Virus record (IMG/VR): IMGVR_UViG_3300025131_000372 | Location: 1 to 25,736 of that record | Source: a virus | Reading direction: 5' to 3' (one strand) | Length of the DNA: 25,736 bases | In this document: positions 6,895 through 20,195 of the stretch, one piece after another | Numbering within the stretch: position 1 is the stretch's first letter | Layout of the letters: the number at the start of each line of letters is the position of its first letter | Translations under genes and position numbers: made by a program | Notes under the pieces: model-generated | What the model was told of the DNA's origin: nothing | The model's input: only the letters and a program-made list of their open reading frames with translations | The model's database searches: none

Positions 6895-7194
6895 TTAGAA
6901 CAGGTCCTGAGCTGGTTCTCTTTGCTGCCGATAACCAGATGATTCTTCCTGCTTTGGCTTTTGACGGGATACGCATAAGCGGTGAGTAGGTTGTTTTGAG
7001 CCTTCTTCTCTCCGGTCATTCTTAAAGACCCAGTATTTCATAGCACCCGCCGAACCGCTCATGTAGCTAGTTCCTGGTTCATGCCAAAGCCCACAAACCT
7101 CGTGCGCTGAGTGTCTGGCTTTGGTGATTACTTCCTGAACTTCTGGAATTTGTAAAACATCCTCGACGGTCCATCCTTGAGGTAAACGTTTCAT
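6895..7194 (-). CDS. Small protein of unknown function, first gene of the minus-strand unit
   Basis: 99 aa. I place the start at the ATG at 7194 because AAAGGAGAG lies 6-8 nt upstream; an in-frame extension to 7260 has no such site. The N-terminus (LPQGWTVEDVLQIPEVQEVITKAR) is helical and resembles no family I recognise. The C-terminal third is basic and Gln/Ser-rich (RRQPKQEESSGYRQQ-like composition), so it may be disordered or bind nucleic acid. It is the only minus-strand gene with the AATTCAACC leader found before the plus-strand early genes, which suggests early expression and separate control from the late block beyond the terminator at 6827-6854. Function unknown. Confidence 0.6.
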   Translation of the reverse strand: MKRLPQGWTVEDVLQIPEVQEVITKARHSAHEVCGLWHEPGTSYMSGSAGAMKYWVFKNDRREEGSKQPTHRLCVSRQKPKQEESSGYRQQREPAQDLF

Positions 7195-7222
7195 TTTAGT
7201 CTCTCCTTTAAGAGGTTGAATT
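7195..7222 (-). promoter_or_regulatory. Start-associated leader, minus-strand copy (AATTCAACC + AAAGGAG)
   Basis: On the minus strand AATTCAACC (7222-7214) is followed by TCTTAAAGGAGAGACTAAA and the ATG at 7194. The core-to-ATG gap is 19 nt, the same as at the copies before 12409 and 15590 (19-20 nt). This is the only copy found on the minus strand. Confidence 0.6.
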
Positions 7223-7391
7223 GGTAAAGCCACTTTATCCCAGGTATGAGCCGCAACCAATAAATTTGACTAACATGGGGAAAAAGAACCCCGAAATGGG
7301 GACAATTAAACCCATGTGATTTTTGCGGGTGGATGTGTCTTCGCCAAGATGGGCCGGTTGGGCCGGAAAAAGAAACAAGGCAGGCTGGGTA

Positions 7392-7436
7392 GTTTGTAGT
7401 GTTTGTAGTGTTTGTAGTGTTTGTAGTGTTTGTAGT
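7392..7436 (+). repeat. Five tandem copies of a 9-bp iteron GTTTGTAGT
   Basis: Perfect head-to-tail units at 7392, 7401, 7410, 7419 and 7428. The same 9-mer appears in reverse orientation (ACTACAAAC) at 7543 and 7628. The array has no unique spacers, so it is not a CRISPR array. It probably binds an initiator or regulator. Confidence 0.9.
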
Positions 7437-7542
7437 GTAATTTCCGGATTTCATTTATACTTTTTTTCTCGTATCTAAGCCCCCTAATATCATTACGCTT
7501 TTCCGTATTATATATTTTAACTCTTATGAATTAGTAAAATAC

Positions 7543-7560
7543 ACTACAAACACTACAAGA
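7543..7560 (-). repeat. Iteron pair in inverted orientation (ACTACAAAC + ACTACAAGA)
   Basis: Two 9-bp units in the opposite direction to the five-unit array, the second with changes at its last two positions. The same pair recurs exactly at 7628-7645. Confidence 0.85.
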
Positions 7561-7595
7561 AATGAGTTTATCTAACAATATCAAATGGTTAGCTT

Positions 7596-7621
7596 GTAGC
7601 GGAAGGAATCGCTTACGCTAC
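7596..7621. repeat. 26-bp element, copy 1 (GTAGCG...CGCTAC)
   Basis: Exact copy of 7682-7707, 86 bp apart. Each copy has 6-bp inverted ends GTAGCG/CGCTAC around a 14-nt centre (GAAGGAATCGCTTA), so it can form a small hairpin. In addition, CGCTACTTTTAC (7616-7627) pairs with GTAAAAGTAGCG (7676-7687), which would draw the two copies into a larger stem. Confidence 0.85.
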
Positions 7622-7627
7622 TTTTAC

Positions 7628-7645
7628 ACTACAAACACTACAAGA
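7628..7645 (-). repeat. Iteron pair, second inverted-orientation copy
   Basis: ACTACAAAC followed by ACTACAAGA, identical to 7543-7560. It lies between the two copies of the 26-bp element. Confidence 0.85.
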
Positions 7646-7681
7646 TTTGTAGCGTTAGACACACCGCGTTAGAGCGTAAAA

Positions 7682-7707
7682 GTAGCGGAAGGAATCGCTT
7701 ACGCTAC
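7682..7707. repeat. 26-bp element, copy 2 (GTAGCG...CGCTAC)
   Basis: Exact repeat of 7596-7621. The segment between the copies also holds two GCGTTAGA octamers (7652-7659 and 7666-7673). Confidence 0.85.
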
Positions 7708-7778
7708 AAAATAAAAGTTCTAATAAAGGGGGGGGGTTATTGTAAGAACCGACCCAATCGCCTCAACTGGCCAAAACG

Positions 7779-7820
7779 CATGGCCATTAATGGGGCAGAT
7801 TGGTCCCATTTAAGGCCATG
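7779..7820. repeat. Imperfect 16-bp inverted repeat
   Basis: CATGGCCATTAATGGG (7779-7794) pairs with CCCATTTAAGGCCATG (7805-7820) at 14 of 16 positions, with a 10-nt loop. The left arm contains its own palindrome CCATTAATGG (7784-7793). No T-run follows, so an operator or origin structure is more likely than a terminator. Confidence 0.7.
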
Positions 7821-7928
7821 ATCCACCGCCGGTTTCTCTCTGTTAGTGCTAGTTTCTTACCCCGTAAAATTTACCCATTTCATAACCAAAGGGTTAGTCA
7901 TATTCTGCCCCCCCTTTAATGTTAAGCT

Positions 7929-8014
7929 GTCAAGTCAAAAGCCCACCCCCCTTTTGACTCGCTTGATATTATTAGGCTTTTCTCATGTGTACAAAAGTAG
8001 TCAAATTATTGACA
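7929..8014 (+). promoter_or_regulatory. Clustered GTCAA/TTGAC half-sites with a -35-like TTGACA, upstream of the helicase
   Basis: GTCAA half-sites begin at 7929, 7934 and 8000, and TTGAC at 7954 and 8009. They form two inverted repeats: AGTCAAAAG (7933-7941) with CTTTTGACT (7951-7959), and GTCAA-ATTA-TTGAC (8000-8013). The second overlaps a perfect -35 hexamer TTGACA (8009-8014), but no good -10 follows (TAGTTC at 15 nt is the best). The set looks like operator sites for a phage regulator controlling the rightward early transcript. Role inferred. Confidence 0.45.
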
Positions 8015-8192
8015 CCGAAAAGTTTACTTTAGTTCCCCAGCAATTTAAATTGAATCTGTGGACATAGGAGAGCGAAAAATTAATCGAAAATAAGTTAGAG
8101 GACCGCCGCTACCATTTGCGCACCCGCGCTCTCCCTTTGTCCACCCAAAGCGGTGGCGGTGGTTCTCTCTTTTCACTCGGGAGGGTAATGCG

Positions 8193-9947
8193 ATGGGCCA
8201 TGCGACGGGGCCAAGGTCGGGGAATTCAGAAAGAAAAATAAGAAACAACCTTCGGGGGCTCAACCACATCCCTGAAGATGATTGGGTTGAACACGAGCTA
8301 CTCGACGACCCAGGATTCAATTGTCCCCCGCAATGGGGGCAGCTTGAGAAGGAAACCGGGCCAGCTCACCCAGTCCCAGCGCTTGGGGATTGGAGCAAAG
8401 ATGGTGCTCTTCTTATTCAACTCAAAGCATTCTTCTCCGAATATATCAACGAGACCGATAATAGCGGCAATCCTTGCCGGATGGTCAAACACAACGATGA
8501 GGTTGACTTGTGGGGGGTTATCAAAGCCGGGTGGAAAAGACAGAACGGGGCTGAGCCAGTCATCACCGAGGGGCAGATGTGGCTCTACCAGAGGAATATT
8601 GGAATCTGGGCAAAAGCAGACACACCGGAGAGGCTTTATTTGTTCAGGCTCCTGCATGGCTTAAGCGCTGGCGATGGCTACCAAGATTTTGATGGCAAAA
8701 CGATTATGATGAACAAGAGAAATCTCTTGGCCCTCGATTTCATGGCGATGCATGACCACGCAATTATCCATAAGAAAAGCCCTTTTGCTGATGAAGTCCC
8801 TGGAGTTGTGCTTCTTACAAATTTACAGCCTGAGAGAAACCCGGCTTATTCAGTCAAGCAAACCCTTATTCACATGCCCGACAAGGATGGCCACGTCCAT
8901 TACATGGCTCCCGGTTTTGAAGAATTCAAACGCCACACGTATAACGAGCCGACGCCACGCCCCAAGCTCTCGGAAGTTGTTAATCTTAGATCTGAAAAAA
9001 ACAACCCGGCGGCCTGGCACCATTACATGAAATCACTCTTTGCGGGGGATGAAGATGCAAAGGCAAAGGTGCAAACGATTGAAGAGCACTTGGGTGCCTC
9101 CCTATGCGGGCTTGCTACTAAATTTCAGCGCGTGGTGGTTCTAGAAGGCTCAGGGGCCAACGGGAAATCGCTCTTCATGGAAATAGCCCGCCGCCTATTT
9201 AATGCTGAAGATGTGACCGTGACGAGTCCCGACACTTGGGGCCGTTTTGGAACAGTTGACCTTATGGGGAAGAAAATCAATCTAGTCACTGAGCTAGATG
9301 AGGGTTCAGTCTTTAAAAGTGATACCTTCAAAAGTGCAGTTACTGGGGATTTAATACGCGGGGAGTACAAGGGAGGGGCAAGTTTCTCGTTCAGGCCGGT
9401 GGCCGGGCATATTCTATCATGCAACTCTTTACCACCAGCAGCGGACCAGTCCCCCGGATTTTATCGGAGATTCATCTTGGTAAAGTTTGGGCGGCGATGG
9501 AGCCACTCAGACCCCGGATATCGAGAAGCGGACCAAATCCTAGATTCTATTATGGAAGTAAGGCACGAGATAGTTCAGCGCCTTGTTTGGTCTTGTGCTG
9601 AGTTGATGAAGCGGGGGCAATATCCGAACCTTTCAAGTCACAATTCAGCAATGAAAGACTGGGCTCAGAATTCTGATTCAGTGACTGACTTTGCGAATTC
9701 ATGCCTTAAGAAAGATGATGAAGGAGACTTTATTAAGGGAATCGAAAAGCAACCAGACTTACATGGGGCCTTTCTGGTGTTTACCAAGAACACCGGGAGG
9801 AAGGGCATGGGGAATCGAAATTTCTACAGAAGGCTTGCAGCGATTGAAGGGGTAGACAAAAGAGAAAAGCACTACAACGGGAGTGCCTGTTTTAATGTCA
9901 AGCTAAACTATCAGGCGGACTGGTTAGAGGGCTCAAAGGATATATAA
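8193..9947 (+). CDS. D5/P4-type SF3 replicative helicase
   Basis: 584 aa. The C-terminal half is a superfamily 3 helicase of the D5/P4 alpha type: Walker A EGSGANGKS (318-326), Walker B INLVTELDE (362-370), motif C HILSCN (406-411) and the arginine finger in GFYRRF (422-427). It would unwind phage DNA at the origin as a hexamer. Residues 130-300 fit the D5_N region seen before such helicases. I do not see a clear archaeo-eukaryotic primase motif or a Toprim in the first 130 residues, so priming may depend on the host or on another protein. GGGAGGG lies 7 nt before the ATG at 8193; an ATG five bases earlier is out of frame. It directly follows the iteron-rich region, as expected if it acts there. 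Confidence 0.9.
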   Translation: MGHATGPRSGNSERKIRNNLRGLNHIPEDDWVEHELLDDPGFNCPPQWGQLEKETGPAHPVPALGDWSKDGALLIQLKAFFSEYINETDNSGNPCRMVKHNDEVDLWGVIKAGWKRQNGAEPVITEGQMWLYQRNIGIWAKADTPERLYLFRLLHGLSAGDGYQDFDGKTIMMNKRNLLALDFMAMHDHAIIHKKSPFADEVPGVVLLTNLQPERNPAYSVKQTLIHMPDKDGHVHYMAPGFEEFKRHTYNEPTPRPKLSEVVNLRSEKNNPAAWHHYMKSLFAGDEDAKAKVQTIEEHLGASLCGLATKFQRVVVLEGSGANGKSLFMEIARRLFNAEDVTVTSPDTWGRFGTVDLMGKKINLVTELDEGSVFKSDTFKSAVTGDLIRGEYKGGASFSFRPVAGHILSCNSLPPAADQSPGFYRRFILVKFGRRWSHSDPGYREADQILDSIMEVRHEIVQRLVWSCAELMKRGQYPNLSSHNSAMKDWAQNSDSVTDFANSCLKKDDEGDFIKGIEKQPDLHGAFLVFTKNTGRKGMGNRNFYRRLAAIEGVDKREKHYNGSACFNVKLNYQADWLEGSKDI

Positions 9948-9955
9948 CCAAGGGA

Positions 9956-9988
9956 GGCAGCGGGGCCGTGATTAGCAGCCCCGCTGCC
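9956..9988 (+). terminator. Strong hairpin after the helicase, terminator-like
   Basis: GGCAGCGGGGC (9956-9966) and GCCCCGCTGCC (9978-9988) form a perfect 11-bp stem with an 11-nt loop, 8 nt after the helicase stop. Only GTTTCAG follows, so it lacks a full U-tract. It may attenuate read-through or protect an mRNA 3' end. Confidence 0.6.
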
Positions 9989-9996
9989 GTTTCAGC

Positions 9997-10010
9997 AACT
10001 CAACCAAAAG
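9997..10010 (+). promoter_or_regulatory. Start-associated leader core AACTCAACCAAAAG
   Basis: Exact AACTCAACC core at 9997-10005. Here the core-to-ATG distance is 35 nt, outside the two usual classes (12-14 and 19-20 nt). A GTG at 10014 is only 8 nt away. The gene at 10041 has its own GGAGG. Confidence 0.5.
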
Positions 10011-10040
10011 AAGGTGAAACAGGCATTAGCCGGAGGCACA

Positions 10041-10604
10041 ATGACTAAGAAAAGACAGAGCATAGAATTTGATCGCGGTCAAGAAACCGAACAAATAGCA
10101 CGATTCAGAAACGCATTGAGATTTGCAGGGCACGCACTCAACTGCGATGAAGGCTCCTATTGTCGGTGCGGTTTCGGGGAGTTAGAGAAGGCGCTAGCTC
10201 GAGCACAACGAGAAAACAAACCACCGACCGAGGATGCTTTTTATTTGTTTCGAGAATGCGCCGCAGAGATAACAGGGCACAGAGGGGAATCATGTGCTGA
10301 CAGGCGGTGTAAGTGCGGCGCAAAAAAAGCACTGAGAAAGCTAAACATCAAGAGCCCTGACGCAGACCAATTCGTTTCGTACTGGTGCTCTCGGTGTTCA
10401 AGGGAGCACCATCAAGAGGACCTTGAATCATTCTGGAAAGAAAAAGACGCTTTAAACGTCCCTTTGGATTCAACCATTGAAGCGCTAAAAGAATCAAATA
10501 GAGAAAAGTGTAGGATGGGCAACTGCCCCACTAAAAACTGTGCTGGGCCTGTTAGACGGTCAATTTTATCATTAAAAAGAATGATTCCGGATGTCCCATT
10601 TTAG
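10041..10604 (+). CDS. Cys-rich, probably zinc-binding protein of unknown function
   Basis: 187 aa. I use the ATG at 10041 because GGAGG lies 6 nt upstream (10031-10035 region); an in-frame GTG at 10014 has no separate site. Four Cys clusters are spaced along the chain: CDEGSYCRCG, CADRRCKCG, WCSRCSREHH and CRMGNCPTKNC. The first two each contain a closing C-x-C-G, suggesting repeated zinc-binding knuckles; the third, C-x2-C with H-H, resembles a treble-clef half-site. This suggests a nucleic-acid-binding or structural zinc protein, but I recognise no family. It is the first gene after the helicase and its terminator-like hairpin. Confidence 0.65.
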   Translation: MTKKRQSIEFDRGQETEQIARFRNALRFAGHALNCDEGSYCRCGFGELEKALARAQRENKPPTEDAFYLFRECAAEITGHRGESCADRRCKCGAKKALRKLNIKSPDADQFVSYWCSRCSREHHQEDLESFWKEKDALNVPLDSTIEALKESNREKCRMGNCPTKNCAGPVRRSILSLKRMIPDVPF

Positions 10605-10635
10605 GAATATTGTCAGGGATGAATAATAATAAACA

Positions 10636-10652
10636 AACTCAACCAAAGGATT
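10636..10652 (+). promoter_or_regulatory. Start-associated leader AACTCAACCAAAGGATT
   Basis: Full 17-nt form before the ATG at 10659 of the nuclease gene. AAAGGA serves as the Shine-Dalgarno sequence; 14 nt separate the AACTCAACC core from the ATG. Identical over 17 nt to the copy at 11858-11874. Confidence 0.7.
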
Positions 10653-10658
10653 AAAACC

Positions 10659-11813
10659 ATGAAATCATTATTTATCAGGTGCTCTTCTCTCAAAGGGGTT
10701 CTTAGCTGCCCCTCTTACGGGCTAACGGATAAACCCTGGAACCCCGAAAGCGTATATAGCCAACAAGGTTCGGCCGGACACCTGGGGGCTCAGTATTACA
10801 TTGATCCTCTTCTCGGCATGGCGGGAGAGGTCCCTGATTTCCCAGAGGTCCAACTCAAGTACCCGCTAATTGATATTAAGGACCTCGAAATCTGCTTCTG
10901 GCTTTTTAAACGAATGTGGGACGAACACCTTGCGCCATTTATGGGGGAAAACATTAGTTGTGAGGTTAAGATGAAGGCTCGTCTTGGTGTTGTTGAAATA
11001 GACGGAGAAGAGACTGAGGTTTTTCTAACTGGCCACGCTGACATTATAGCCCAAACGGCCATGGATTTAATCGTCTATGATTGGAAGTTTGGAAGAGCCC
11101 TTGGCGCTTCTCACTTTTCACAAACTGCAGGTTATGCAGCTCTAGCGGTGACTGTGTACGGGTGGCCAGAGTCCGGAGTGGTAACCGCTGGTGAGGCCTA
11201 CCCCCGCTTTGGGAAATGGAAAGACCACACTCAGAAAATCGATAAGGTTTATCTGGGACAGTTCAAAGAAACGGTTCTTGAGACTTTAAAGCATAGGGGC
11301 AAAGTAAGAAACCCATCACCCGACGGTTGCAAGTTTTGCTCAGCCCGGCTTGACTGCCCAGAATACCCGCGAATGTTTCAGGATAGTTTTATCGCTGTGA
11401 AGGGGATGGTAGACGGAGATTCTAGCGTTGTTGACCCTGAAGAACTGGCTCATCTTCATTCAGCGTTTAAAACCCTCGAATATGCTTGCAGCTCTTTCAA
11501 AAAGCTATTTGCAACAACCCTCGAAACAGCCAACGCTGTAGGGAAAGACAACGCAATAGAAGGTTTTTATCTTCAAGAGAAAACTAGGCGAAGTGTAGAG
11601 CCCCAAGCGGCATGGCCTCACCTTGCTAAAGTTCTTAATCAGGATGAAATTGCATCAGTTCTTTCTATGCCGCTAGCCAAGGTGAAAAGCGCGGTTATGA
11701 GCAAGACACCAGAAGGAATGAAGAAAAAAGAATTTTGGGCAGAGTTTGAGAAAGCCCTCTATGAATCAACCGCTATCATCGAAAGCTCTTCTTTGACCGT
11801 AGCAAAAAAATAA
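10659..11813 (+). CDS. Cas4/RecB-like PD-(D/E)XK nuclease (DUF2800-like)
   Basis: 384 aa. N-terminal CSSLKGVLSCPSY (8-20) and GSAGHLGAQYY (37-47) match the opening of RecB/Cas4-like phage exonucleases. The catalytic core is GHADII (125-130, candidate D127) and LIVYDWKFGRALG (137-149, with the D-x-K pair D141/K143). A C-terminal cluster CKFCSARLDCPEYP gives Cys 224, 227 and 233; with Cys17 this could hold a 4Fe-4S cluster as in Cas4/AddB. The likely role is double-strand DNA end resection to produce single strands for the RecT annealase encoded two genes downstream, in a lambda Exo/Beta-like pair. The start follows the full leader AACTCAACCAAAGGATT. Confidence 0.82.
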   Translation: MKSLFIRCSSLKGVLSCPSYGLTDKPWNPESVYSQQGSAGHLGAQYYIDPLLGMAGEVPDFPEVQLKYPLIDIKDLEICFWLFKRMWDEHLAPFMGENISCEVKMKARLGVVEIDGEETEVFLTGHADIIAQTAMDLIVYDWKFGRALGASHFSQTAGYAALAVTVYGWPESGVVTAGEAYPRFGKWKDHTQKIDKVYLGQFKETVLETLKHRGKVRNPSPDGCKFCSARLDCPEYPRMFQDSFIAVKGMVDGDSSVVDPEELAHLHSAFKTLEYACSSFKKLFATTLETANAVGKDNAIEGFYLQEKTRRSVEPQAAWPHLAKVLNQDEIASVLSMPLAKVKSAVMSKTPEGMKKKEFWAEFEKALYESTAIIESSSLTVAKK

Positions 11814-11819
11814 GAAAAC

Positions 11820-11846
11820 TTTACACGCTCTGGGGTTGTATATACT
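11820..11846 (+). promoter_or_regulatory. Possible promoter with TGTATATAC element
   Basis: TTTACA (11820-11825) and TATACT (11841-11846) are separated by 15 nt, slightly short for a sigma70 promoter. The TGTATATAC at 11837-11845 recurs as the palindrome TGTATATACA twice before the gene at 15226, so this may be an operator or a shared early-promoter element. Confidence 0.4.
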
Positions 11847-11857
11847 TTGGAGTCACT

Positions 11858-11874
11858 AACTCAACCAAAGGATT
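11858..11874 (+). promoter_or_regulatory. Start-associated leader AACTCAACCAAAGGATT
   Basis: Exact 17-nt copy of the leader at 10636-10652. 12 nt lie between the AACTCAACC core and the ATG at 11879. Confidence 0.7.
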
Positions 11875-11878
11875 TGAA

Positions 11879-12244
11879 ATGATTAAAACCACAGAAGACA
11901 TTCTAGGTGGCGGTATCGCCACAAAAACAACTATCAGCACAGGGTATTTCACCCCAGGCGGTGGAAGGTACCACCTCATCTGGGGGCACGTTCCAGACAT
12001 TAACGACCCGGACGGGCCTCTTAAGTTCATCGGTACATGGATGAACAGAGGCGGCGGCGGTGTCACAGTTATGCACCAAATTGGGACATTCTGTCATTGG
12101 ACTTACGTTGATGAAAAAATGGGCATTGGAGAAGAGAACGCAAAGGCAATCGCCCACTTTATCAACTCAGTAAACTTTTTTGACTACAAGCCAGAGAACT
12201 ACCTGGCCGATTTGCCACGAGGCGTCAAAGGGGCTCTGTCATGA
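11879..12244 (+). CDS. Protein of unknown function in the recombination cluster
   Basis: 121 aa. The start follows the full leader element with AAAGGA 6-7 nt before ATG. The sequence has glycine-rich turns (GGGIATKT, TPGGGRYH, RGGGGVTV) and aromatic residues, suggesting a small beta-rich fold; no known motif is evident. It sits between the nuclease and RecT, where phages often keep single-stranded DNA-binding or accessory recombination proteins, but it lacks a recognisable OB-fold SSB acidic tail. The stop overlaps the start of the next small gene (ATGA). Function unknown. Confidence 0.65.
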   Translation: MIKTTEDILGGGIATKTTISTGYFTPGGGRYHLIWGHVPDINDPDGPLKFIGTWMNRGGGGVTVMHQIGTFCHWTYVDEKMGIGEENAKAIAHFINSVNFFDYKPENYLADLPRGVKGALS

Positions 12245-12405
12245 GATTAAAAACGGGGGATAGCGTTACAATTGACCACCAGGTTTTTGGCGCAAAGGTG
12301 ATAGCTCAAAGCAAAGACGGAAAAAGAATCAAGGTAAAATACCACTGCCCTCGAGAGGGGCAGATTGTTAAATGTGTACAACTCAACCAAATTACAAAGG
12401 ATTAA
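12241..12405 (+). CDS. 54-aa small basic protein, KOW/SH3-like in composition
   Basis: 54 aa, starting at an ATG that overlaps the previous stop (ATGA) and ending 3 nt before the RecT start. The chain (MRLKTGDSVTIDHQVFGAKV, then a basic KDGKRIKVKYH segment) looks like a small SH3/KOW-type beta barrel, with 'GDxV' near the start and a 'V.....G..I.VKY' strand pair. Its last codons (QLNQITKD) are written over the leader element for RecT, so the coding region and the regulatory element share DNA. That the element stays intact although translated supports both readings. Function unknown. Confidence 0.6.
   Translation: MRLKTGDSVTIDHQVFGAKVIAQSKDGKRIKVKYHCPREGQIVKCVQLNQITKD
12380..12403 (+). promoter_or_regulatory. 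Start-associated leader with 7-nt insertion, before RecT
   Basis: AACTCAACC (12380-12388), AAATTAC, then AAAGGATT (12396-12403). Compared with the 17-nt form it has a 7-nt insertion between core and Shine-Dalgarno part, giving a 20-nt core-to-ATG gap. It lies inside the end of the 54-aa gene. Confidence 0.65.
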
Positions 12406-12408
12406 AAA

Positions 12409-13311
12409 ATGGGTAATTTATCAGAAGCTCAGATGGCGATAGTAACGCTAATGGATAGAAAGTTTGAGGTGCTAAAAAAAGCACTTCCGGCGAACGTCAA
12501 CCCGACACGATTTAAACAAGCCGCAATCATGGCCGCAACGGAAAACCCTAAAATCGTTTTAGAATGCACGCCCGTCTCAGTATTCACAGCCATCTTGCAA
12601 GCGGCCCAGCTTGGTTACAATCTCGGCTCTGCTTATAACGAGGCATATTTAATCCCATATAGGGACAAGCGCCGAGGCGTTACAGAGTGCAAACTAACTC
12701 CCGGCTATGTTGGAATGAGGCGAGCCCTAATTCGTTCCGGAGCTGCTGATGTAGTTCACGCGTCTATCGTGCATCAAAACGACATTTGCACAATCTCTCA
12801 CCACCCACCAAGCGTTAAACATGAGATTGACTTAAAAGGGGATAGGGGGGAATGGCTGGGGGTTCTTGCCTGTGCTTATCGCCTTAATGACGGGGTTCAC
12901 CAGCTCATTGACTTTGAGTATTTGAGCGAAGAAAGAATCCTCGCAGCTAAGGCCCAGGCGAGGGATAAATCGCTATGGAACAAGCACCCCGAACAATTCT
13001 GGAAAAAGACCGGAGTGCGGGCATTGGTTAAACTCTTTCCCCTGGTCAACGATGAACTCGTCACAATGGTTTCGTGGGACAATGAGAGCAACATCCCTTT
13101 GGAAGAGCAAGCCCCCACAATCCACCAGGACACCGCTACAGCGGTCGCGGCTGTAAAGGAGCTACCACAAGCGGAAGTTCTACCACCGCCACCAGAGAGC
13201 CCACAGGCAGCTGAGGCGAAGAAAAAGACCAAGCCGCGCAAAAAGCGCACAACTAAGAAACAAAAAGAAGACAACGGGCTTAATGTGCCTGTGCCTTTCG
13301 GGTTTGCGTGA
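12409..13311 (+). CDS. recT: RecT-family single-strand annealing protein
   Basis: 300 aa. Typical RecT features: PTRFKQAAIMAATENPKIVLECTPVSVFTAILQAAQLGYNLG at about 30-70 (shown here for its conserved spacing: 'F....l......P.l..c...S...a...aa.lGl'), AYLIPYRDK and the KLTPGYVGMRRALIRSG segment, then WNKHPEQFWKKTGVRALVKLFP before residue 215. RecT proteins coat ssDNA and anneal complementary strands for phage recombination and concatemer formation; the partner exonuclease is probably the Cas4/RecB-like gene upstream. The C-terminal 80 residues are low-complexity, Pro- then Lys-rich (KKKTKPRKKRTTKKQKED), an unstructured tail. The start follows the leader variant with the long spacing; the end overlaps the next gene (TGATG). 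Confidence 0.9.
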   Translation: MGNLSEAQMAIVTLMDRKFEVLKKALPANVNPTRFKQAAIMAATENPKIVLECTPVSVFTAILQAAQLGYNLGSAYNEAYLIPYRDKRRGVTECKLTPGYVGMRRALIRSGAADVVHASIVHQNDICTISHHPPSVKHEIDLKGDRGEWLGVLACAYRLNDGVHQLIDFEYLSEERILAAKAQARDKSLWNKHPEQFWKKTGVRALVKLFPLVNDELVTMVSWDNESNIPLEEQAPTIHQDTATAVAAVKELPQAEVLPPPPESPQAAEAKKKTKPRKKRTTKKQKEDNGLNVPVPFGFA

Positions 13312-13541
13312 TGAGAAGCAAAGAACAAGACTCTAACTCGAGACTAGCTAAAGCCATCAAGACCTATCTCCGGTGGGTTAATAGGACGGTAGCTCTTGAA
13401 TACCTTGGGGGAGAATATCACCCGCTCGGTGAGGGGGAAAGGGTGTTTAGAGTGGACACAATGAGAGACCTGGCAAGCAGTATAGGAAAAGAGGCTCGAA
13501 ATGTTGCGGAAGAAAACCACATAGAGGGGGGAGCAAAATGA
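13311..13541 (+). CDS. Small protein of unknown function
   Basis: 76 aa. The ATG at 13311 overlaps the RecT stop (TGATG), so translation is probably coupled; a GTG one codon earlier is also in frame. It is a soluble, mixed-charge, mostly helical protein with an aromatic middle (YLRWVNRTVALEYLGGEYHP). I recognise no motif. It is the first of five genes joined by 1-4 nt overlaps. Confidence 0.6.
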   Translation: MRSKEQDSNSRLAKAIKTYLRWVNRTVALEYLGGEYHPLGEGERVFRVDTMRDLASSIGKEARNVAEENHIEGGAK

Positions 13542-13735
13542 AGACAGAGAAAGAAATTCTAAAAGAAGGAAACGCGGATTCTTGGAACCGTGACGTTTTG
13601 CAATTCTTGCTTGCAGAAACAGAAGAGCGCCAGGCAAGAGAACGGGCAGAGGAAACAGCAACTAGGAAGTTTTACCGGTGGGTGCTTTCTACGCTCTTAC
13701 TCACTGGATTAGTTTGGGTGGGGTTGGTGCTATGA
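13538..13735 (+). CDS. Small tail-anchored membrane protein
   Basis: 65 aa. ATGA overlap with the previous gene. About 45 residues of charged helix (coiled-coil prone: LAETEERQARERAEETATRK) are followed by one hydrophobic segment at 47-65 (WVLSTLLLTGLVWVGLVL), leaving a cytoplasmic N-terminus and C-terminal anchor. Function unknown; see the note on the cluster of tiny membrane proteins. Confidence 0.6.
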   Translation: MKTEKEILKEGNADSWNRDVLQFLLAETEERQARERAEETATRKFYRWVLSTLLLTGLVWVGLVL

Positions 13736-13890
13736 AAAACCAATATTTAAGAAGAAAGCAAAAGCAATCTTTCAGAATACCTTTTGAGCGATTCGGTCCA
13801 ACTGAATGGATTGGTTTGGCTCTTGCTTCTTCGCTCTTGTTGTCTTGTTCTACGATATTTCTTTTTGAAGTTTTGGGGGGGTTATCATGA
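13732..13890 (+). CDS. 52-aa single-pass membrane protein
   Basis: 52 aa, starting at the ATG at 13732, which overlaps the previous stop (ATGA); an upstream in-frame start would lie inside the preceding membrane segment and is less likely. A very basic N-terminus (LRRKQKQSFR) precedes one transmembrane segment at about 26-48 (WIGLALASSLLLSCSTIFLF), so the N-terminus should stay inside. Function unknown. Confidence 0.55.
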   Translation: MKNQYLRRKQKQSFRIPFERFGPTEWIGLALASSLLLSCSTIFLFEVLGGLS

Positions 13891-14159
13891 AAAATTTACC
13901 AGAGAGAGGCGGCTCTTTATCTTATGGCCTATTTGACGAGAGGCCCCCAATCGGTCGGTGGCTTATGATGGGTATAGTCTTCGGCGCGGTCGGCTTAGTC
14001 TGTTACGGTGGATACCATCACGGAGTAAAGCTTGAGCAGGCAGCATTGGGGAGCCCAAAGCCAGAGGCTCGTGCCACTAAGAAGCAGGAGAAGAAAGCCA
14101 GCCAGATAACAGAAGGCAATCGTGAATGGCTCACAAGCATAGCAAAAGGGGGTGAGTGA
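13887..14159 (+). CDS. Small single-pass membrane protein
   Basis: 90 aa. ATGA overlap with the previous gene. One transmembrane segment lies at about 25-44 (WLMMGIVFGAVGLVCYGGYH), followed by a Lys/Glu-rich, probably disordered tail. Function unknown. It belongs to the run of coupled tiny membrane proteins. Confidence 0.6.
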   Translation: MKNLPERGGSLSYGLFDERPPIGRWLMMGIVFGAVGLVCYGGYHHGVKLEQAALGSPKPEARATKKQEKKASQITEGNREWLTSIAKGGE

Positions 14160-14428
14160 TGGGATTCTGGGGAAAGAAGAAAACAAGAAAGAATTTAGTC
14201 AAGCATGACATTCAACAAACTCATGATGTTCTTGATTACATCAACCACACAGCATTAAAAACGGCTGGGATGGGTGCAGAGTACAAGAAGCGGTTAATAA
14301 TGGAGGGGGATGAGAATGACAAAGTAAGCATGGACATTTGCGACGCTGTGACTATTCAACTCAAAGGGGCGTATGAGACTATGTTCGAGCTGGTAAAAGA
14401 AAAGCAAAGCCAGCCGGAGATAAAATAA
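14159..14428 (+). CDS. Small soluble protein of unknown function
   Basis: 89 aa. The ATG at 14159 overlaps the previous stop (TGATG). A basic start (GFWGKKKTRKNLVKHD) is followed by a helical body. No membrane segment and no recognised motif. It closes the series of overlapping genes that began with RecT. Confidence 0.6.
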   Translation: MGFWGKKKTRKNLVKHDIQQTHDVLDYINHTALKTAGMGAEYKKRLIMEGDENDKVSMDICDAVTIQLKGAYETMFELVKEKQSQPEIK

Positions 14429-14443
14429 CAAAAGGGAGGGGAT

Positions 14444-14617
14444 ATGAATTTATTGCTAGAGAGTTTTCATTCACTGAGTCCAGGAGGGATTGCAATTTTA
14501 ATTAGCTCTTCTGTGATTTTTGCTTCAGTTAGTATCAGGGCTTCCGGGATGTGGAGGGCAAATAGGCGGCTAAAAAAAGCCATCAACGCGATAAACATCG
14601 GGTTGCCTTATGGATGA
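14444..14617 (+). CDS. 57-aa single-pass membrane protein
   Basis: 57 aa. The ATG at 14444 follows GGGAGGGG at 4 nt spacing, a strong site. One transmembrane segment at about 14-33 (GGIAILISSSVIFASVSIRA) is followed by a basic tail (WRANRRLKKAINAI). The end overlaps the VRR-NUC gene by 8 nt. Function unknown; it is the fourth tiny membrane protein in about 1.1 kb. Confidence 0.6.
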   Translation: MNLLLESFHSLSPGGIAILISSSVIFASVSIRASGMWRANRRLKKAINAINIGLPYG

Positions 14618-15065
14618 GCAGACCCCCGAAGAGAAGCGGAAGGAGAGCACCAAGCGTGCGATCCTCCGCTTCTATAAAGGGCAAGAGCCCAAGAAAAGAA
14701 ACAAGCGCCTAGACGTTCCTTATGAATGGCAAGAGGCACGGGACTTCGTTCAATGGATGCGGTCCATGAACATCCTGCATACGCATATTCCGAACGAGGG
14801 TAAGCGCAGCGGTCAACGCGGTAAAGCAATGGTTGAGGGCGGCTTAAGCAAAGGGTTTCCGGATTTCATTATCCTTGGCCCCCGCCCCCCGTGTGGCGCT
14901 CCAGGGATAGCCATCGAATTGAAGCGGACGAAATACTATTCTCACCCACGTGAGCAAAAAGCTTGGCTTGCAAAGCTGCGCCAATACGGCTGGAAAGCTG
15001 ATTTTGCCCACGGAGCTGATGAAGCCATCGAGCTGGTGTCGAAATGGCTTAATCTACCAAAATAG
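14610..15065 (+). CDS. VRR-NUC family nuclease (PD-(D/E)XK)
   Basis: 151 aa. The C-terminal two thirds fit the VRR-NUC fold: GFPDFIIL (82-89, catalytic D85), GIAIELKR (99-106, E103 and K105), then REQKAWLAKLRQYGWKADFAHGADEAIELV with Gln116 in the place of the family's conserved Q. Phage VRR-NUC proteins cleave branched or junction DNA, so a role in resolving recombination intermediates before packaging is likely. The N-terminus (about 1-40) is Lys/Arg-rich. It overlaps the 57-aa membrane protein gene by 8 nt. After its stop comes about 160 nt of non-coding DNA with repeats. Confidence 0.88.
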   Translation: MDEQTPEEKRKESTKRAILRFYKGQEPKKRNKRLDVPYEWQEARDFVQWMRSMNILHTHIPNEGKRSGQRGKAMVEGGLSKGFPDFIILGPRPPCGAPGIAIELKRTKYYSHPREQKAWLAKLRQYGWKADFAHGADEAIELVSKWLNLPK

Positions 15066-15133
15066 ATCGAGCAAAGTACATTTATTTTTTCTTATGATTT
15101 CAAGGGCTTAGATGCAAGACGTGAGTCCCCCCT

Positions 15134-15175
15134 GCTTTATTGTATATACATCTACTGAGCTTTATTGTATATACA
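15134..15175. promoter_or_regulatory. Twin palindromic operators TGTATATACA in a 17-bp direct repeat
   Basis: GCTTTATTGTATATACA occurs at 15134-15150 and 15159-15175, 25 bp apart (about 2.4 helical turns). Each ends in the perfect 10-bp palindrome TGTATATACA (15141-15150, 15166-15175). A related TGTATATAC lies at 11837-11845 before another early gene. They look like operator sites with overlapping -10-like sequence. Regulator unknown; the 51-aa ribbon-helix-helix protein at 17295 is a candidate. Confidence 0.55.
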
Positions 15176-15181
15176 AGGGGT

Positions 15182-15196
15182 GCCCCGCGATGGGGC
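15182..15196 (+). other. Small G/C hairpin in the leader of the gene at 15226
   Basis: GCCCC-GCGAT-GGGGC, a 5-bp stem directly after the twin operators and just before the leader element. It could structure the 5' end of a transcript beginning at the operators. Confidence 0.4.
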
Positions 15197-15203
15197 GCAC
15201 GAA

Positions 15204-15220
15204 AACTCAACTAAAGGATT
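15204..15220 (+). promoter_or_regulatory. Start-associated leader AACTCAACTAAAGGATT
   Basis: One mismatch to the 17-nt form (T for C at position 9). 13 nt lie between the core and the ATG at 15226. This leader supports 15226 as the start, rather than an in-frame ATG at 15112. Confidence 0.65.
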
Positions 15221-15225
15221 TTAAA

Positions 15226-15561
15226 ATGACATTTTCAGCAACAATTATAAAAGCAGTCAGCACTCTTGGAGGTGATCTCCAGACCGTCTTAGAAAGCATG
15301 GTTTCGTCGGCCGATATTAACGCTATTGACACAAACGGCGACTATGAGGAAATCTTCACGGGTACATGGAACGGAATCGACACGGCCGATCATGTCGAAG
15401 ATATCGACGAAGACAAGCGGGAGGCCATGGCGGATCTAGCCCGTGCTTGGATGGACGCTTGGCCAGATGCATCTAAGCTTTCAGAAATCGAATCGGTAGC
15501 CGCCAAGCTCGCAGCGCAGGCGGCTGAGATTGAATTATTAAAAGCGCAATTAAACAATTAA
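15226..15561 (+). CDS. Small acidic protein of unknown function
   Basis: 111 aa. I place the start at 15226 because the leader element with AAAGGA precedes it; the open frame extends upstream through the repeats but that part is Cys-rich and unlikely to be coding. The middle is acidic (NGDYEEIFTG, DHVEDIDEDKRE) and the C-terminus is a heptad-like helix ending in IELLKAQLNN, probably a short coiled coil. No known motif. The stop is followed almost at once by a degenerate leader for the next gene. Confidence 0.6.
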   Translation: MTFSATIIKAVSTLGGDLQTVLESMVSSADINAIDTNGDYEEIFTGTWNGIDTADHVEDIDEDKREAMADLARAWMDAWPDASKLSEIESVAAKLAAQAAEIELLKAQLNN

Positions 15562-15581
15562 AAATCAACCAAAATTAGGAG
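15562..15581 (+). promoter_or_regulatory. Degenerate start-associated leader
   Basis: AAATCAACC (15562-15570) has one mismatch to AAYTCAACC. AGGAG follows at 15577-15581 and the ATG at 15590; core-to-ATG gap 19 nt. Confidence 0.5.
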
Positions 15582-15589
15582 CAACTAAA

Positions 15590-15952
15590 ATGGAAGACCT
15601 GGATATTTTACGACAAAACGTCGAAGACCTCGTCTGTGACCCGCCAGTTCGGGGCACTATGGAATATGCCCAAATGGTGCTTATCAATGCACTTGAAGCC
15701 GGGCTAACTAAGACGCGGAAAGCCCTAGCCGTCGCCCTTGACATTAAAACAGGCACTCCCGTTCCTGTTCACGCCCCTATTGAAGCCGCCCCTGATCGTA
15801 AGCTTTCGGCGTTGGATAAATTGTCCAAAATCAATATGCACCGCAACGAACGCATCGCCGAACTTGAAGCCGAAGTTGCCGAGCTTAATGCCGAACTTAA
15901 AGACTGCAAGGAAGCCTGCGGCATAGCTATCCGCTTGTCCGCTTCTAGCTGA
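15590..15952 (+). CDS. Coiled-coil protein of unknown function
   Basis: 120 aa. AGGAG lies 8 nt before the ATG. The N-terminal half is helical and ends in a Pro/Val-rich linker (TPVPVHAPIEAAP). The C-terminus (about 85-112) is a clear coiled coil with leucine heptads (RIAELEAEVAELNAELKD). It has no recognised family. Like its neighbour at 15226 it ends in a coiled coil, so the two might form a pair; this is speculation. A terminator follows. Confidence 0.6.
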   Translation: MEDLDILRQNVEDLVCDPPVRGTMEYAQMVLINALEAGLTKTRKALAVALDIKTGTPVPVHAPIEAAPDRKLSALDKLSKINMHRNERIAELEAEVAELNAELKDCKEACGIAIRLSASS

Positions 15953-16010
15953 AATCAGGGAAACGGAATCGTCTGGAGAAGGAGCAACCAATAACTAACC
16001 AATGCCTAAG

Positions 16011-16033
16011 AGCCCGCCTAGTGCGGGTTTTTT
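16011..16033 (+). terminator. Intrinsic terminator
   Basis: CCCGC (16013-16017) and GCGGG (16023-16027), extended by wobble and A-T pairs (AG before, TT after), are followed by TTTTTT (16028-16033). It ends the transcript of the two coiled-coil genes. The next gene has its own leader element about 25 nt downstream. Confidence 0.82.
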
Positions 16034-16056
16034 GCGTGTAGCTTAGACAAGTAAAC

Positions 16057-16070
16057 AACTCAACCAGAGG
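16057..16070 (+). promoter_or_regulatory. Start-associated leader AACTCAACCAGAGG
   Basis: Exact core at 16057-16065, with AGAGG in place of AAAGGA as Shine-Dalgarno. 12 nt to the ATG at 16078. Confidence 0.65.
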
Positions 16071-16077
16071 TAAGACA

Positions 16078-16401
16078 ATGGAATTCAAGATCTACAAGGC
16101 ATACGACATCGAAACGCAACTCGCTAATATCGAGGATTTTATCAAGCAAGTACCTAACTTTAGAGCCACTGCAAAATATATCATCAACAATTCCAGCGAG
16201 AAAATTGTTGATTTACAAGAGCTGGTAGACGGTGAGACTACGCTGTCTAAATATTGGACGTCATCTGACAAGCAGTCAAGCATCGGCTTCTGGTCAATCG
16301 AGACTCCAGACGATGAAATCTGGGAAATTCTAAAATCAGAAGGCCACGATGGCACGGGCGAAATCGAAAACTGTCTCGTTGAGCCTCACGAAATCGCATA
16401 A
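16078..16401 (+). CDS. Small protein of unknown function
   Basis: 107 aa. The start follows the leader element with AGAGG at 7 nt. It is an acidic, soluble, mixed alpha/beta protein with several Trp (KYWTSSDKQSSIGFWSIE, DEIWEILKSEGHDG). No motif is recognised. It lies after a terminator and before another leader, so it is probably an independently translated early gene. Confidence 0.6.
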   Translation: MEFKIYKAYDIETQLANIEDFIKQVPNFRATAKYIINNSSEKIVDLQELVDGETTLSKYWTSSDKQSSIGFWSIETPDDEIWEILKSEGHDGTGEIENCLVEPHEIA

Positions 16402-16404
16402 GAC

Positions 16405-16419
16405 AATTCAACCAAAGGA
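16405..16419 (+). promoter_or_regulatory. Start-associated leader AATTCAACCAAAGGA
   Basis: AATTCAACC (16405-16413) then AAAGGA. 13 nt from core to the ATG at 16427. It decides the start: the open frame continues upstream to 16349 but inside the previous gene. Confidence 0.65.
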
Positions 16420-16426
16420 AAACAAA

Positions 16427-16933
16427 ATGAAGATTAAATCAATAGAGATGGACGCGGACCCACAAGTATTCAACCCCGAGGGTGTCCCTTATATCAAAAT
16501 TAGTTTCGAGATAAACGGGGCAGATTTTCAGTGGTGCGAGTGGACGGATGGGGACGTTTTAGAAGTGACGGATTCAATGGAATCGGCAGGCGGGAATGAT
16601 TGGATGTGGGGAGAACTTGAAAACGCAGGAGAGGAAAAAGATGTCATTCTTGAGCATCTTAGATTCATCGCAAAATCTTTTCTTGCAAACTCAACGTTAA
16701 ATCAAATCCAACGATGTGAAGAGCATTTCAAAAATCTTCCTCTGGGAATGAAGTCTGATACCTACAGGCTAGAGCCAGACCCAAGGGTCACCGAAGAAGT
16801 GGACGCCGAGCGGCTTGATAGAGAGAGCGAGCGAGAAGAATTTAAGAGGGCTCTCCGTGTTAGGCAAGCAATGCCTACGAACGATTCTTGCTATGAAGTG
16901 GACGCCGAGCGGCTAGAAGAGGAGGTAGCGTAA
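16427..16933 (+). CDS. Acidic protein of unknown function with an internal duplication
   Basis: 168 aa. Start chosen at 16427 by the leader element. It is strongly acidic, with a beta-like N-terminal half (FEINGADFQWCEWTDGDVLEV) and a helical C-terminus. An exact 20-bp direct repeat at 16796-16815 and 16895-16914 encodes EVDAERL twice, 33 codons apart. The second copy nearly ends the protein, which suggests a recent in-frame duplication or slippage. No known domain. The stop overlaps the next start (TAATG). Confidence 0.6.
   Translation: MKIKSIEMDADPQVFNPEGVPYIKISFEINGADFQWCEWTDGDVLEVTDSMESAGGNDWMWGELENAGEEKDVILEHLRFIAKSFLANSTLNQIQRCEEHFKNLPLGMKSDTYRLEPDPRVTEEVDAERLDRESEREEFKRALRVRQAMPTNDSCYEVDAERLEEEVA
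16796..16914 (+). repeat. 20-bp in-frame direct repeat pair
   Basis: GAAGTGGACGCCGAGCGGCT is present at 16796-16815 and again at 16895-16914, exactly 99 bp apart and in the same reading frame. Codons are identical although synonymous change would be free, consistent with a young duplication. Confidence 0.9.
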
Positions 16934-17298
16934 TGGCCTCTGAACCATGCCTTTGCGGCGCTCTTGATTGCAAATTCTGCAACCCCAGCGGGTGGCGGGA
17001 AGTTCTTAATCCGCCATCGGGGGATTGCTACTGGTGCAAAGATACCGTTGAAGCAACGCCCGGAGATGATGCCATCTGCAGCGGTTGCCTTTACCCATTC
17101 ACCGACAATCCCGATGTGATTATTGAATTTTCAATCAACCAAAAAGACGAAGACGAGAAGAAAATCAAAGAGCTATCTGAAAAAATTGACGAAATAACGA
17201 TTATCACTCGGCACTTGAATCAGCAAAATATGCGTTTCAGAGAAGAGCGAGAAGCTGATTCTAAACCCAAGCCACTCAACGGAGAGGCTACACTATGA
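16933..17298 (+). CDS. Zinc-finger-like small protein
   Basis: 121 aa. The ATG overlaps the previous stop (TAATG). The N-terminal half has two Cys sets: PCLCGALDCKFC (6-16) and YWCKDTVEA...ICSGC, i.e. a C-x-C-x5-C-x2-C knuckle and a C-x2-C / C-x2-C zinc-ribbon-like pair. The C-terminal half is a charged helix, likely coiled coil (DEDEKKIKELSEKIDEITII). It may bind DNA or RNA, or act as an adaptor; no family is recognised. Its stop overlaps the start of the ribbon-helix-helix gene (ATGA). Confidence 0.62.
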   Translation: MASEPCLCGALDCKFCNPSGWREVLNPPSGDCYWCKDTVEATPGDDAICSGCLYPFTDNPDVIIEFSINQKDEDEKKIKELSEKIDEITIITRHLNQQNMRFREEREADSKPKPLNGEATL

Positions 17299-17450
17299 GC
17301 AACAACGAACAGCTCTCAGAAACGATTCTGATAAGGATTTCCCCAGAGATGAAGGCAAGCATCAGGAAAGAAGCAAAAGCCCGTGGGAAGGCGTCCTCGG
17401 CGCTCATACGCGATGCAATCAGTAAAGCAGTTACCCAGAAGAAAAAATAA
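17295..17450 (+). CDS. 51-aa ribbon-helix-helix (Arc/CopG-like) DNA-binding protein
   Basis: 51 aa, ATGA overlap with the zinc-finger-like gene. The pattern ILIRISPEMKASIRKEAKAR then GKASSALIRDAISKAV fits the MetJ/Arc fold: one beta strand (ILIRIS, 11-16) that pairs in the dimer and contacts DNA, followed by two helices (17-29 and 33-46) with the usual small-residue turn. Such proteins are dimeric repressors or copy-number-type regulators that bind short palindromes, so it is the best candidate regulator in this window; possible sites are the TGTATATACA pair (15134-15175) and the GTCAA cluster (7929-8014). Binding is inference. It is the last gene of its transcript, with a hairpin just after it. 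Confidence 0.78.
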   Translation: MSNNEQLSETILIRISPEMKASIRKEAKARGKASSALIRDAISKAVTQKKK

Positions 17451-18758: not shown

Positions 18759-19332
18759 GTTTGAAAACGTCCTTTTGTTTATCATTTTCATCGTTTTATG
18801 GACGGCTACCTTCCTAACTATCTCCGCCTTGATTTCAGGTTGTGGGAAGCCCCATTTTTACGGTGAAAATACTGGGCAAGAAACCCCAGCTCCCGACGCT
18901 ACAAAATGGATTCACATCTCACCGGAAGAAATGAATGAGCCATTGGAAGCGGGCACCTATAAAGTAGGCACCTACGTAGAGCAGCCGGGGTGCGGCGTGC
19001 CATACGGGCCAGCCGGGATGGACACTTGGCAGCTATGGAGCCAAGATGGGCAACGATATCTCGCGCAAGTTGGGCAGCCTCATGTAGTTGGAGCGGTGGC
19101 TATAGCAGAAGCTGGGCAGCCGAATACATACACCCACCGAGCGCATCACTATAGCGCTGGATGCGTTTACGAATACGTCACTCAGATAAAATTACGGAAG
19201 CATTTCCCATATCAATTCCAGGGTGACTGGGCGCAGCTTGTGAACGTCGCCGATTATGAAGGCGCAGGAGGGTGCAGTCTATCAGGGGCCGTCTGTCAAT
19301 ATTCTATGAAAGTAGCGGGCAATGGCGAATAG
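18751..19332 (+). CDS. Membrane-anchored or lipoprotein-like protein, possible spanin partner
   Basis: 193 aa from the ATG at 18751 (AGGCGG 7 nt upstream; a TTG at 18745 is in frame but poorer). A hydrophobic segment at 7-29 ends in ISGC (28-31), a lipobox, so it may be an export signal with lipidated Cys31 or a plain anchor. The exported part has Cys pairs and short repeats (EAGTYKVGTYVEQPGCG, QVGQPHVVG, EAGQPNTYTH), probably beta-rich. It lies just before a second lipoprotein and the endolysin, which suggests a role in lysis or the cell envelope. As an inner spanin it would be unusual, since no long coiled coil is seen; superinfection exclusion is another possibility. Confidence 0.6.
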   Translation: MFKFENVLLFIIFIVLWTATFLTISALISGCGKPHFYGENTGQETPAPDATKWIHISPEEMNEPLEAGTYKVGTYVEQPGCGVPYGPAGMDTWQLWSQDGQRYLAQVGQPHVVGAVAIAEAGQPNTYTHRAHHYSAGCVYEYVTQIKLRKHFPYQFQGDWAQLVNVADYEGAGGCSLSGAVCQYSMKVAGNGE

Positions 19333-19594
19333 AATAAACCAGAAAAGCCGAATTTTCTTCAGCCTGGCCTTGTGCTCGTCTATCGTGCTAACAGCGTGCA
19401 ACGGCTGTGCCCTTAGACCTCTTGGTGTGTCTTGTAAATCGATAGCGGTGGGGCAAGTTAAGAATAGAGGAGTGACAAGAGAAGAGATTTCTCTTTCTGA
19501 ATCTCACGGGGCCCAAGAATCAAGAACGGTTTGCAGGATCATCTATTCACTAGAGGACATCGAAGAAGAGCTGGCGGGAGAGGCTGACTTATAG
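19322..19594 (+). CDS. Small lipoprotein, possible o-spanin
   Basis: 90 aa. The start overlaps the previous gene by 11 nt. A basic N-terminus (NRINQKSR), hydrophobic stretch (IFFSLALCSSIVL) and lipobox LTAC (23-26) predict a lipoprotein with mature N-terminus Cys26 and Asn at +2, an outer-membrane pattern. The rest is short and acidic at the end (LEDIEEELAGEADL). Size and position beside the endolysin fit an outer-membrane spanin subunit, but it is not Pro-rich as Rz1 is and is not nested in the upstream gene. Gram-negative host inferred partly from this gene. Confidence 0.62.
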   Translation: MANRINQKSRIFFSLALCSSIVLTACNGCALRPLGVSCKSIAVGQVKNRGVTREEISLSESHGAQESRTVCRIIYSLEDIEEELAGEADL

Positions 19595-20001
19595 TGCCAA
19601 AACGATACACTAAAAATTTCTTAGTGAATGAATTTTCGTGTAATTGCGGCTGCCCTCATGGGACGATGGACCAGAGGCACATGGACCTTCTCCAACGGTT
19701 GCGTGATGTAGCTGGCCCTTTAAAAGTAACATCTGGAATAAGGTGCGCCACTTACAATAAGCTAATCGGTGGGGCTAAAAGGTCACAACACATCCCAGAT
19801 GCAAACGGGGTTTGCTGTGCTTGTGATATTACTTTTATCACTGGTTTAAAAAGCAATAGACAAATGCTTAAGCTATATACCTTAGCAGATCAAATACACT
19901 TCAAAGGAATTGGCCTTTATAGGGGTCGCATTCATGTTGACAGCCGTCCAGGTAGACGCGCCAGGTGGATTGATCACTTTTGGAATTGGAAAGACACCTA
20001 G
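19594..20001 (+). CDS. M15-family peptidase endolysin
   Basis: 135 aa. GTG start overlapping the previous stop (TAGTG). It follows Peptidase_M15_3: FLVNEFSC at 9-16, SGIRCATYNKLIGGAKRSQH (47-66), then ACDIT (76-80) and GRIHVDSR (111-118). H66, D78 and H114 are the expected zinc ligands. The enzyme cuts peptide cross-links of peptidoglycan to release progeny. It has no signal peptide, so export would need a holin; holin-like genes lie on the opposite strand just beyond (20196-20447). Extra Cys (16, 18, 20, 51, 74, 75, 77) are unusual for this family. Last gene of the plus-strand unit. Confidence 0.86.
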   Translation: MPKRYTKNFLVNEFSCNCGCPHGTMDQRHMDLLQRLRDVAGPLKVTSGIRCATYNKLIGGAKRSQHIPDANGVCCACDITFITGLKSNRQMLKLYTLADQIHFKGIGLYRGRIHVDSRPGRRARWIDHFWNWKDT

Positions 20002-20033
20002 TCACCAAGTGACCTTAATACCAGCCATCCCTG

Positions 20034-20195
20034 CTAATCTCTCGGCGGTGGCTGTGACTTCAGCAAACACTCTAGTGTTTTCTCTAATGCTAGAATCAAT
20101 TCTAATAAAGCCTTCCGGCTTGATGCTTCCGCCAGAAATAAGCCAGTCATAATCCCCCCGTATGCCAGCAGTAAGCATACGAGAAGACGGTCCAT
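20034..20195 (-). CDS. 53-aa small membrane protein at the end of the late unit
   Basis: 53 aa on the minus strand, starting directly after the stop of the holin-like gene (TAGATG, zero gap) and ending 33 nt from the endolysin stop. A hydrophobic segment at 3-22 (RLLVCLLLAYGGIMTGLFLA) is followed by a leucine-rich helix (RKALLELILALEKTLECLL). The zero-gap start and location suggest a real gene, perhaps a second holin/antiholin or a spanin-like anchor. No clear Shine-Dalgarno sequence precedes it, so it would depend on translational coupling. Function unknown. Confidence 0.5.
   Translation of the reverse strand: MDRLLVCLLLAYGGIMTGLFLAEASSRKALLELILALEKTLECLLKSQPPPRD
20159..20181. terminator. 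Hairpin near the convergent junction
   Basis: CGTATGC (20159-20165) and GCATACG (20175-20181) form a perfect 7-bp stem with a 9-nt loop. It lies between the ends of the plus and minus transcription units, but within the 53-aa minus-strand gene. There is no T-run on either side, so terminator function is uncertain. Confidence 0.35.

Follow-up and report, generated by a model that had tools for sequence, protein, structure and literature searches.

The start-associated sequences (SAS) of cluster K mycobacteriophages (PMC3203893, PMC12699233, PMC11373665) are short asymmetric repeats with the consensus GGGATAGGAGCCC (PMC3203893). They contain a Shine-Dalgarno (SD) sequence, lie just before start codons in the orientation of the gene, are limited to non-structural genes and are scarce in, or missing from, the genome of the host; about half of the copies have 17-bp imperfect inverted repeats, termed ESAS, upstream. 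Proven translation enhancers include ACA motifs located 5' of the SD in Salmonella (PMC3879156) and, in the leader of T7 gene 10, a 9-nucleotide (nt) element upstream of the SD, for which binding of ribosomal protein S1 has been proposed (PMC8748333). Here we describe a start-associated leader built on the 9-mer AACTCAACC in the early region of a phage known from the IMG/VR virus record IMGVR_UViG_3300025131_000372, analysed over its 25,736 bases (the window). With a probability of about one half, it is a translation-initiation element of this phage lineage that acts in the mRNA.

The window encodes a Mu-like portal, a terminase, RecT, a DUF2800/PD-(D/E)XK exonuclease and a DUF5906 (D5-like) primase. 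Queries with the exonuclease, primase and RecT identify a sole other contig with the same early region, IMGVR_UViG_2811995110_000316 (G001), with 69-78% identity across the three; a search for further relatives with exonuclease and RecT alignments returned G001 again and no others. A terminase search added a near relative of 5.5 kb (L017), whose terminase is 98% identical, and a search of cellular genomes for primase homologues, aimed at the host, gave no match. The comparisons are therefore based on two full early regions, those of the window and G001, and one fragment.

The preliminary description of this DNA had reported a repeated core, AAYTCAACC, before the starts of independently translated early genes. 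The window indeed contains seven exact copies (7214-7222 on the minus strand, 9997, 10636, 11858, 12380, 16057 and 16405) where 0.67 are expected, a number reached in none of 100 shuffles. All seven are on the strand of the gene and at most 60 nt upstream of a start. The one-mismatch forms announced for genes 15226 and 15590 were found at 15204 and 15562, also upstream of starts; a one-mismatch scan of the window gives 25 hits in total against 13.2 expected, the other 16 one-mismatch hits being about at background. G001 carries eight exact copies, every one before a start. The motif is thus neither equally frequent away from starts nor absent from the related phage: in both phages together, all 15 exact copies are oriented like the gene and no more than 60 nt ahead of its start (binomial p of 2e-10 and 6e-12). 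The 9-mer TCAACCAAA is common to 13 of the 67 upstream regions of the two phages, and the best shared 9-mer in 200 dinucleotide shuffles reaches at most four. When 118 viral contigs are ranked by their shared upstream 9-mers, the window and G001 take the first and second ranks.

The leaders of the window are the following.

7195..7222, minus strand: AATTCAACC TCTT AAAGGAG AGACTAAA then ATG, leader of gene 6895-7194 (minus strand).
9997..10013, plus strand: AACTCAACC AAAAGAAG before GTG 10014, with ATG 10041 and its own GGAGG 35 nt further.
10636..10658, plus strand: AACTCAACC AAAGGA TTAAAACC, leader of the exonuclease gene 10659-11813.
11858..11878, plus strand: AACTCAACC AAAGGA TTTGAA, leader of gene 11879-12244.
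12380..12408, plus strand: AACTCAACC AAATTAC AAAGGA TTAAAAA, leader of recT (12409-13311).
15204..15225, plus strand: AACTCAACT AAAGGA TTTTAAA, one mismatch, leader of gene 15226-15561.
15562..15589, plus strand: AAATCAACC AAAATT AGGAG CAACTAAA, one mismatch, leader of gene 15590-15952.
16057..16077, plus strand: AACTCAACC AGAGGT AAGACA, leader of gene 16078-16401.
16405..16426, plus strand: AATTCAACC AAAGGA AAACAAA, leader of gene 16427-16933.

The typical layout is a G-free 9-mer, AACTCAACC (four C and one T in nine), then a modest SD, AAAGGA, and an A/T-rich spacer. An alignment of 17 copies shows 0.17 bit per position in the 5' flank, 1.86 in the core, a value inflated because the copies were collected by pattern, and 1.12 over the six positions that follow (A-rich run and SD). 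The SD is at or beside the 3' end of nearly all copies; in G001, (A)AAAGGA directly follows AACTCAACC in six of the eight, mostly fused to it as AACTCAACCAAAGGA. Two classes of core-to-ATG spacing, as first described, are present, and they arise because the distance from core to SD is either 0-1 nt or about 4-8 nt: the longer insert occurs at 7194, 12409 and 15590, and elsewhere AAAGGA usually abuts the core. Gene 10041, formerly a spacing outlier, allows two readings of its start, either at GTG 10014, which the motif directly precedes, or at ATG 10041, which has a GGAGG of its own. The equivalent site of G001 keeps AACTCAACCAAAAG (AACTCAACCAAAAGCAG then ATG), and the main ATG with its SD lies 45 nt on.

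Several details of single copies are retained between the phages. The T variant AATTCAACC ahead of gene 7194 is kept in the window, G001 and the fragment L017, and the 10636 leader is kept ahead of the G001 exonuclease orthologue (69% protein identity). The 12380 copy overlaps the end of the open reading frame 12241-12405, where it codes for ...QLNQITKD and the stop, and is therefore not intergenic; at its recT site, where the coding context is conserved, G001 keeps TCAACCAAATTACAAAGGA but not the initial three bases. Within the window, the 17-nt identity between the copies at 10636 and 11858 holds as previously reported.

The leader follows the gap to the gene ahead. It is present at 16 of the 20 starts that lie 20 nt or more from that gene and at one of the 19 that lie closer, the RecT gene (Fisher p = 2e-6), in a tally of both phages counted by hand from gene calls, whose starts are predictions, so that the figures vary with the starts chosen. 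The claim that independently translated genes carry the leader therefore stands as a strong tendency, not as a rule. Upstream of the late genes of the window and G001 we found no exact copy. Gene 11879 and its orthologue provide a natural experiment: in the window the gene lies 65 nt from the gene ahead and has the leader, whereas its G001 counterpart, which begins 3 nt past the stop of the gene ahead, is without one. At 7194, 10041 and 10659, both members of the orthologous pair have the leader. A blastp comparison of the early regions gives no G001 homologue for the leader genes 15226, 15590, 16078 and 16427, and none in the window for the five leader genes of G001 at 19017-20594; by this comparison, leader and downstream gene are uncoupled in evolution.

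Among the 17 copies, no element, such as a promoter, recurs at a fixed distance upstream. Some copies come after terminator-like hairpins (16057, preceded by a hairpin at about 16009-16032, and 19631 and 19980 in G001), others directly after stop codons (15562; 16405, which begins 4 nt past the stop of the gene ahead; 20574 in G001), and the 12380 copy lies within a gene end. The SD and the start codon are the only constant neighbours, which favours an action in the mRNA at initiation.

In behaviour, the leader resembles the SAS of cluster K. Both are short, asymmetric, SD-containing repeats placed just before start codons in gene orientation; both are limited to non-structural genes, prefer genes separated from their upstream neighbour, are conserved in relatives and are attached to different gene families; four leader genes in the window and five in G001 have no homologue in the early region of the other phage. 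The sequences are nevertheless unrelated, as AACTCAACC-AAAGGA fails the GGGATAGGAGCCC consensus. The leader is conserved beyond the SD on the 5' side only, whereas SAS are conserved 3' of it too, and its core-to-ATG spacing is 12-22 nt, compared with 3-7 nt for SAS. No ESAS-like inverted repeat is shared among the upstream flanks of the 17 copies, three of which follow a TTGTATATACA site. The present lineage is also unrelated to cluster K mycobacteriophages. The leader is outside the SAS family as defined.

Other described elements match in part. Like the leader, the T7 gene 10 enhancer is a 9-nt element a few nt upstream of an SD, with an effect proposed to pass through S1 and not through pairing with ribosomal RNA (rRNA) (PMC8748333). 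It is, however, A/U-rich, while the leader core is C/A-rich, and it serves one late capsid gene instead of many early ones; its enhancement was measured, and the leader is a putative enhancer. The ACA- or CA-rich enhancers of GcvB targets (PMC3879156) are similarly C/A-rich, largely G-free, placed right before the SD and tolerant of spacing, but they are not one fixed sequence across a phage regulon, and the trinucleotide ACA does not occur in the leader core. The stoperators of cluster A and the 17-bp repeats of cluster O (PMC4351075) are also short multi-copy phage repeats, and stoperators, DNA sites that the phage repressor binds so as to block transcription, are like the leader asymmetric and oriented with transcription. 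Neither is tied to start codons, whereas the leader keeps a fixed position with respect to SD and start; the repeats of cluster O are palindromic and in many cases within genes.

The best reading remains a phage-specific start-associated translational element akin to the SAS. The leader is repeated, oriented and fixed in position, conserved in a relative with different genes, and excluded from coupled and late genes; from this we infer an action on translation with a positive effect. Placed immediately 5' of the SD, AACTCAACC would act as a single-stranded landing or enhancer site that recruits the 30S subunit, perhaps by way of S1, to early genes that translational coupling to the gene ahead cannot supply with ribosomes. 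Predicted folding is weaker around the starts of leader genes than around other starts (minimum free energy, p = 0.0015; accessibility, p = 0.03). Several observations weigh against a translation-initiation element. Anti-SD pairing of leader genes is somewhat weaker, though not significantly so (p = 0.08), and AACTCAACC is stricter in sequence than an unstructured enhancer requires. Highly expressed late genes do not use the leader, and some uncoupled genes lack it (8193 and 17737 in the window, 12279 and 17500 in G001), as does gene 14444, with its 15-nt gap. Finally, the first copy, at 9997, is 35-45 nt from the better start in both phages.

The strict core leaves a regulated operator as the main and serious rival, although we consider it rather unlikely. 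Here a phage or host RNA-binding protein, or a small RNA, would recognise AACTCAACC beside the SD and repress or activate the whole early regulon at a translational operator, in the manner of T4 RegA or GcvB with their targets. The near-invariant core amid diverged flanks, which is partly so by construction, fits this model; in both phages the leader is confined to the early region and precedes unrelated genes, much as in a regulon, and position 3 of the core varies mostly between C and T, compatible with pairing to G. No such partner was found in the window, however. It holds no exact complement of the core besides the antisense of the copies themselves, so that neither a phage antisense RNA nor the small RNA suggested in the preliminary description is found there. 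Small early proteins tested include no known RNA-binding regulator, the RHH/CopG protein encoded at 17295-17450 more likely binds DNA, and an Rfam search gives no match.

A recombination linker had been proposed as well: a short homology for cassette swaps, conserved mainly by travelling with incoming genes. It has local support, as the G001 copies at 19631 and 19980, whose downstream genes are unrelated, share a duplicated terminator-plus-leader block about 40 nt long, and leaders stay while the downstream genes differ between the phages. Elsewhere the flanks of the copies are mutually unlike (0.17 bit per position); most copies are therefore not recent duplicates, and a linker as the sole explanation is rejected. 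Nor does a linker require a fixed place relative to SD and start, or absence at abutting genes, and we hold it improbable. Separately, a sequence close to the terminator-plus-leader block of G001, GGCCTTTTGGGGTGTAACTCAACCAAAGGAG, occurs in a single copy at 36-66 of the contig L118 (IMGVR_UViG_3300037010_001285; GC content 0.61), which the searches for relatives did not recover.

Even less probable, in our view, is a transcription element at the DNA level, a repressor site of the stoperator kind or a promoter part, whose place at gene starts would be a coincidence. The leader is asymmetric and co-oriented with transcription, like cluster A stoperators (PMC4351075), and three leaders (11858, 15204 and 18993 in G001) have a promoter- or operator-like TTGTATATACA site 12-55 nt ahead of them. 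However, no upstream element keeps a constant distance among the 17 copies, several leave no room for a promoter between the core and the preceding gene or terminator, and a DNA site does not need the near-fixed spacing to the SD.

It is very improbable that the leaders are phage ribosome-binding sites of the ordinary kind, with an A/C-rich stretch ahead of AAAGGA that seems repeated through chance or general preference: AACTCAACCAAAGGA followed by ATG at 3-9 nt does occur once each before real genes of unrelated viral contigs, but in an IMG/VR-wide scan a shuffle of the 9-mer with the same dinucleotides is nearly as common (52 stretches against 58; 23 distinct genes against 39), so AACTCAACCAAAGGA is not generally favoured, and many copies are found in the window and G001 only, with 13 shared regions where 200 shuffles reach four. 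In 85,000 cellular genomes there are lone matches scattered over many phyla, without clusters, and deposited phages gave weak partial matches only (E 2-8). With the near-equal control, multiple copies in G001 alone and the scattered cellular hits, the leader is specific to this phage lineage. Extended anti-SD pairing is rejected also: the core, on the 5' side of the SD, falls beyond the 3' end of 16S rRNA, and its duplex energies with the rRNA of E. coli and two other species are like those of shuffles. Complementarity to 16S rRNA, a possibility raised earlier, is unremarkable for E. coli 16S and 23S and the 16S of two other species, which may differ from the rRNA of the host.

Other features lie around the leaders. 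The TTGTATATACA site, a palindrome or promoter-like sequence, stands at 11836, 15140 and 15165, upstream of the leader genes 11879 and 15226, and in G001 upstream of 19017 and once more in the control region. G001 also encodes a protein that looks similar to the RHH/CopG protein of the window. Positions 7195-8192 are a control region between divergent genes, adjoining the primase gene. Five 9-nt iterons, GTTTGTAGT, at 7392-7438 and inverted copies at 7540-7560 and 7625-7645 are found in this region, which may be a replication origin. Its blocks 7274-7319 and 7747-7821 are conserved but inverted in G001 (93% and 83% identity), with L017 colinear over the adjacent stretch 7411-7694, and the region may have flipped in part. 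A perfect 27-nt inverted repeat joins 9876-9902, at the 3' end of the primase gene, to 15737-15763, in gene 15590-15952, 5.8 kb apart. At the same two places G001 has no linking repeat of 18 nt or more. The two mRNAs may pair through the repeat, or it may be a copied scrap.

Cluster K start-associated sequences have been known since 2011 and are still unexplained. That their architecture reappears in an unrelated lineage of phages, built on an unrelated sequence, suggests a strategy that recurs and not a mycobacteriophage oddity. Because the extra conserved part of the leader is only upstream of the SD, its function is easy to isolate in a reporter. A bolder and doubtful extension is a translation code for phage early genes, in which a factor or small RNA of the phage would redirect or modify host ribosomes so that AACTCAACC-SD mRNAs are initiated by preference, and newly acquired genes would join through the leader. 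If it were true, the cluster K sequences would be an independent instance of the same strategy.

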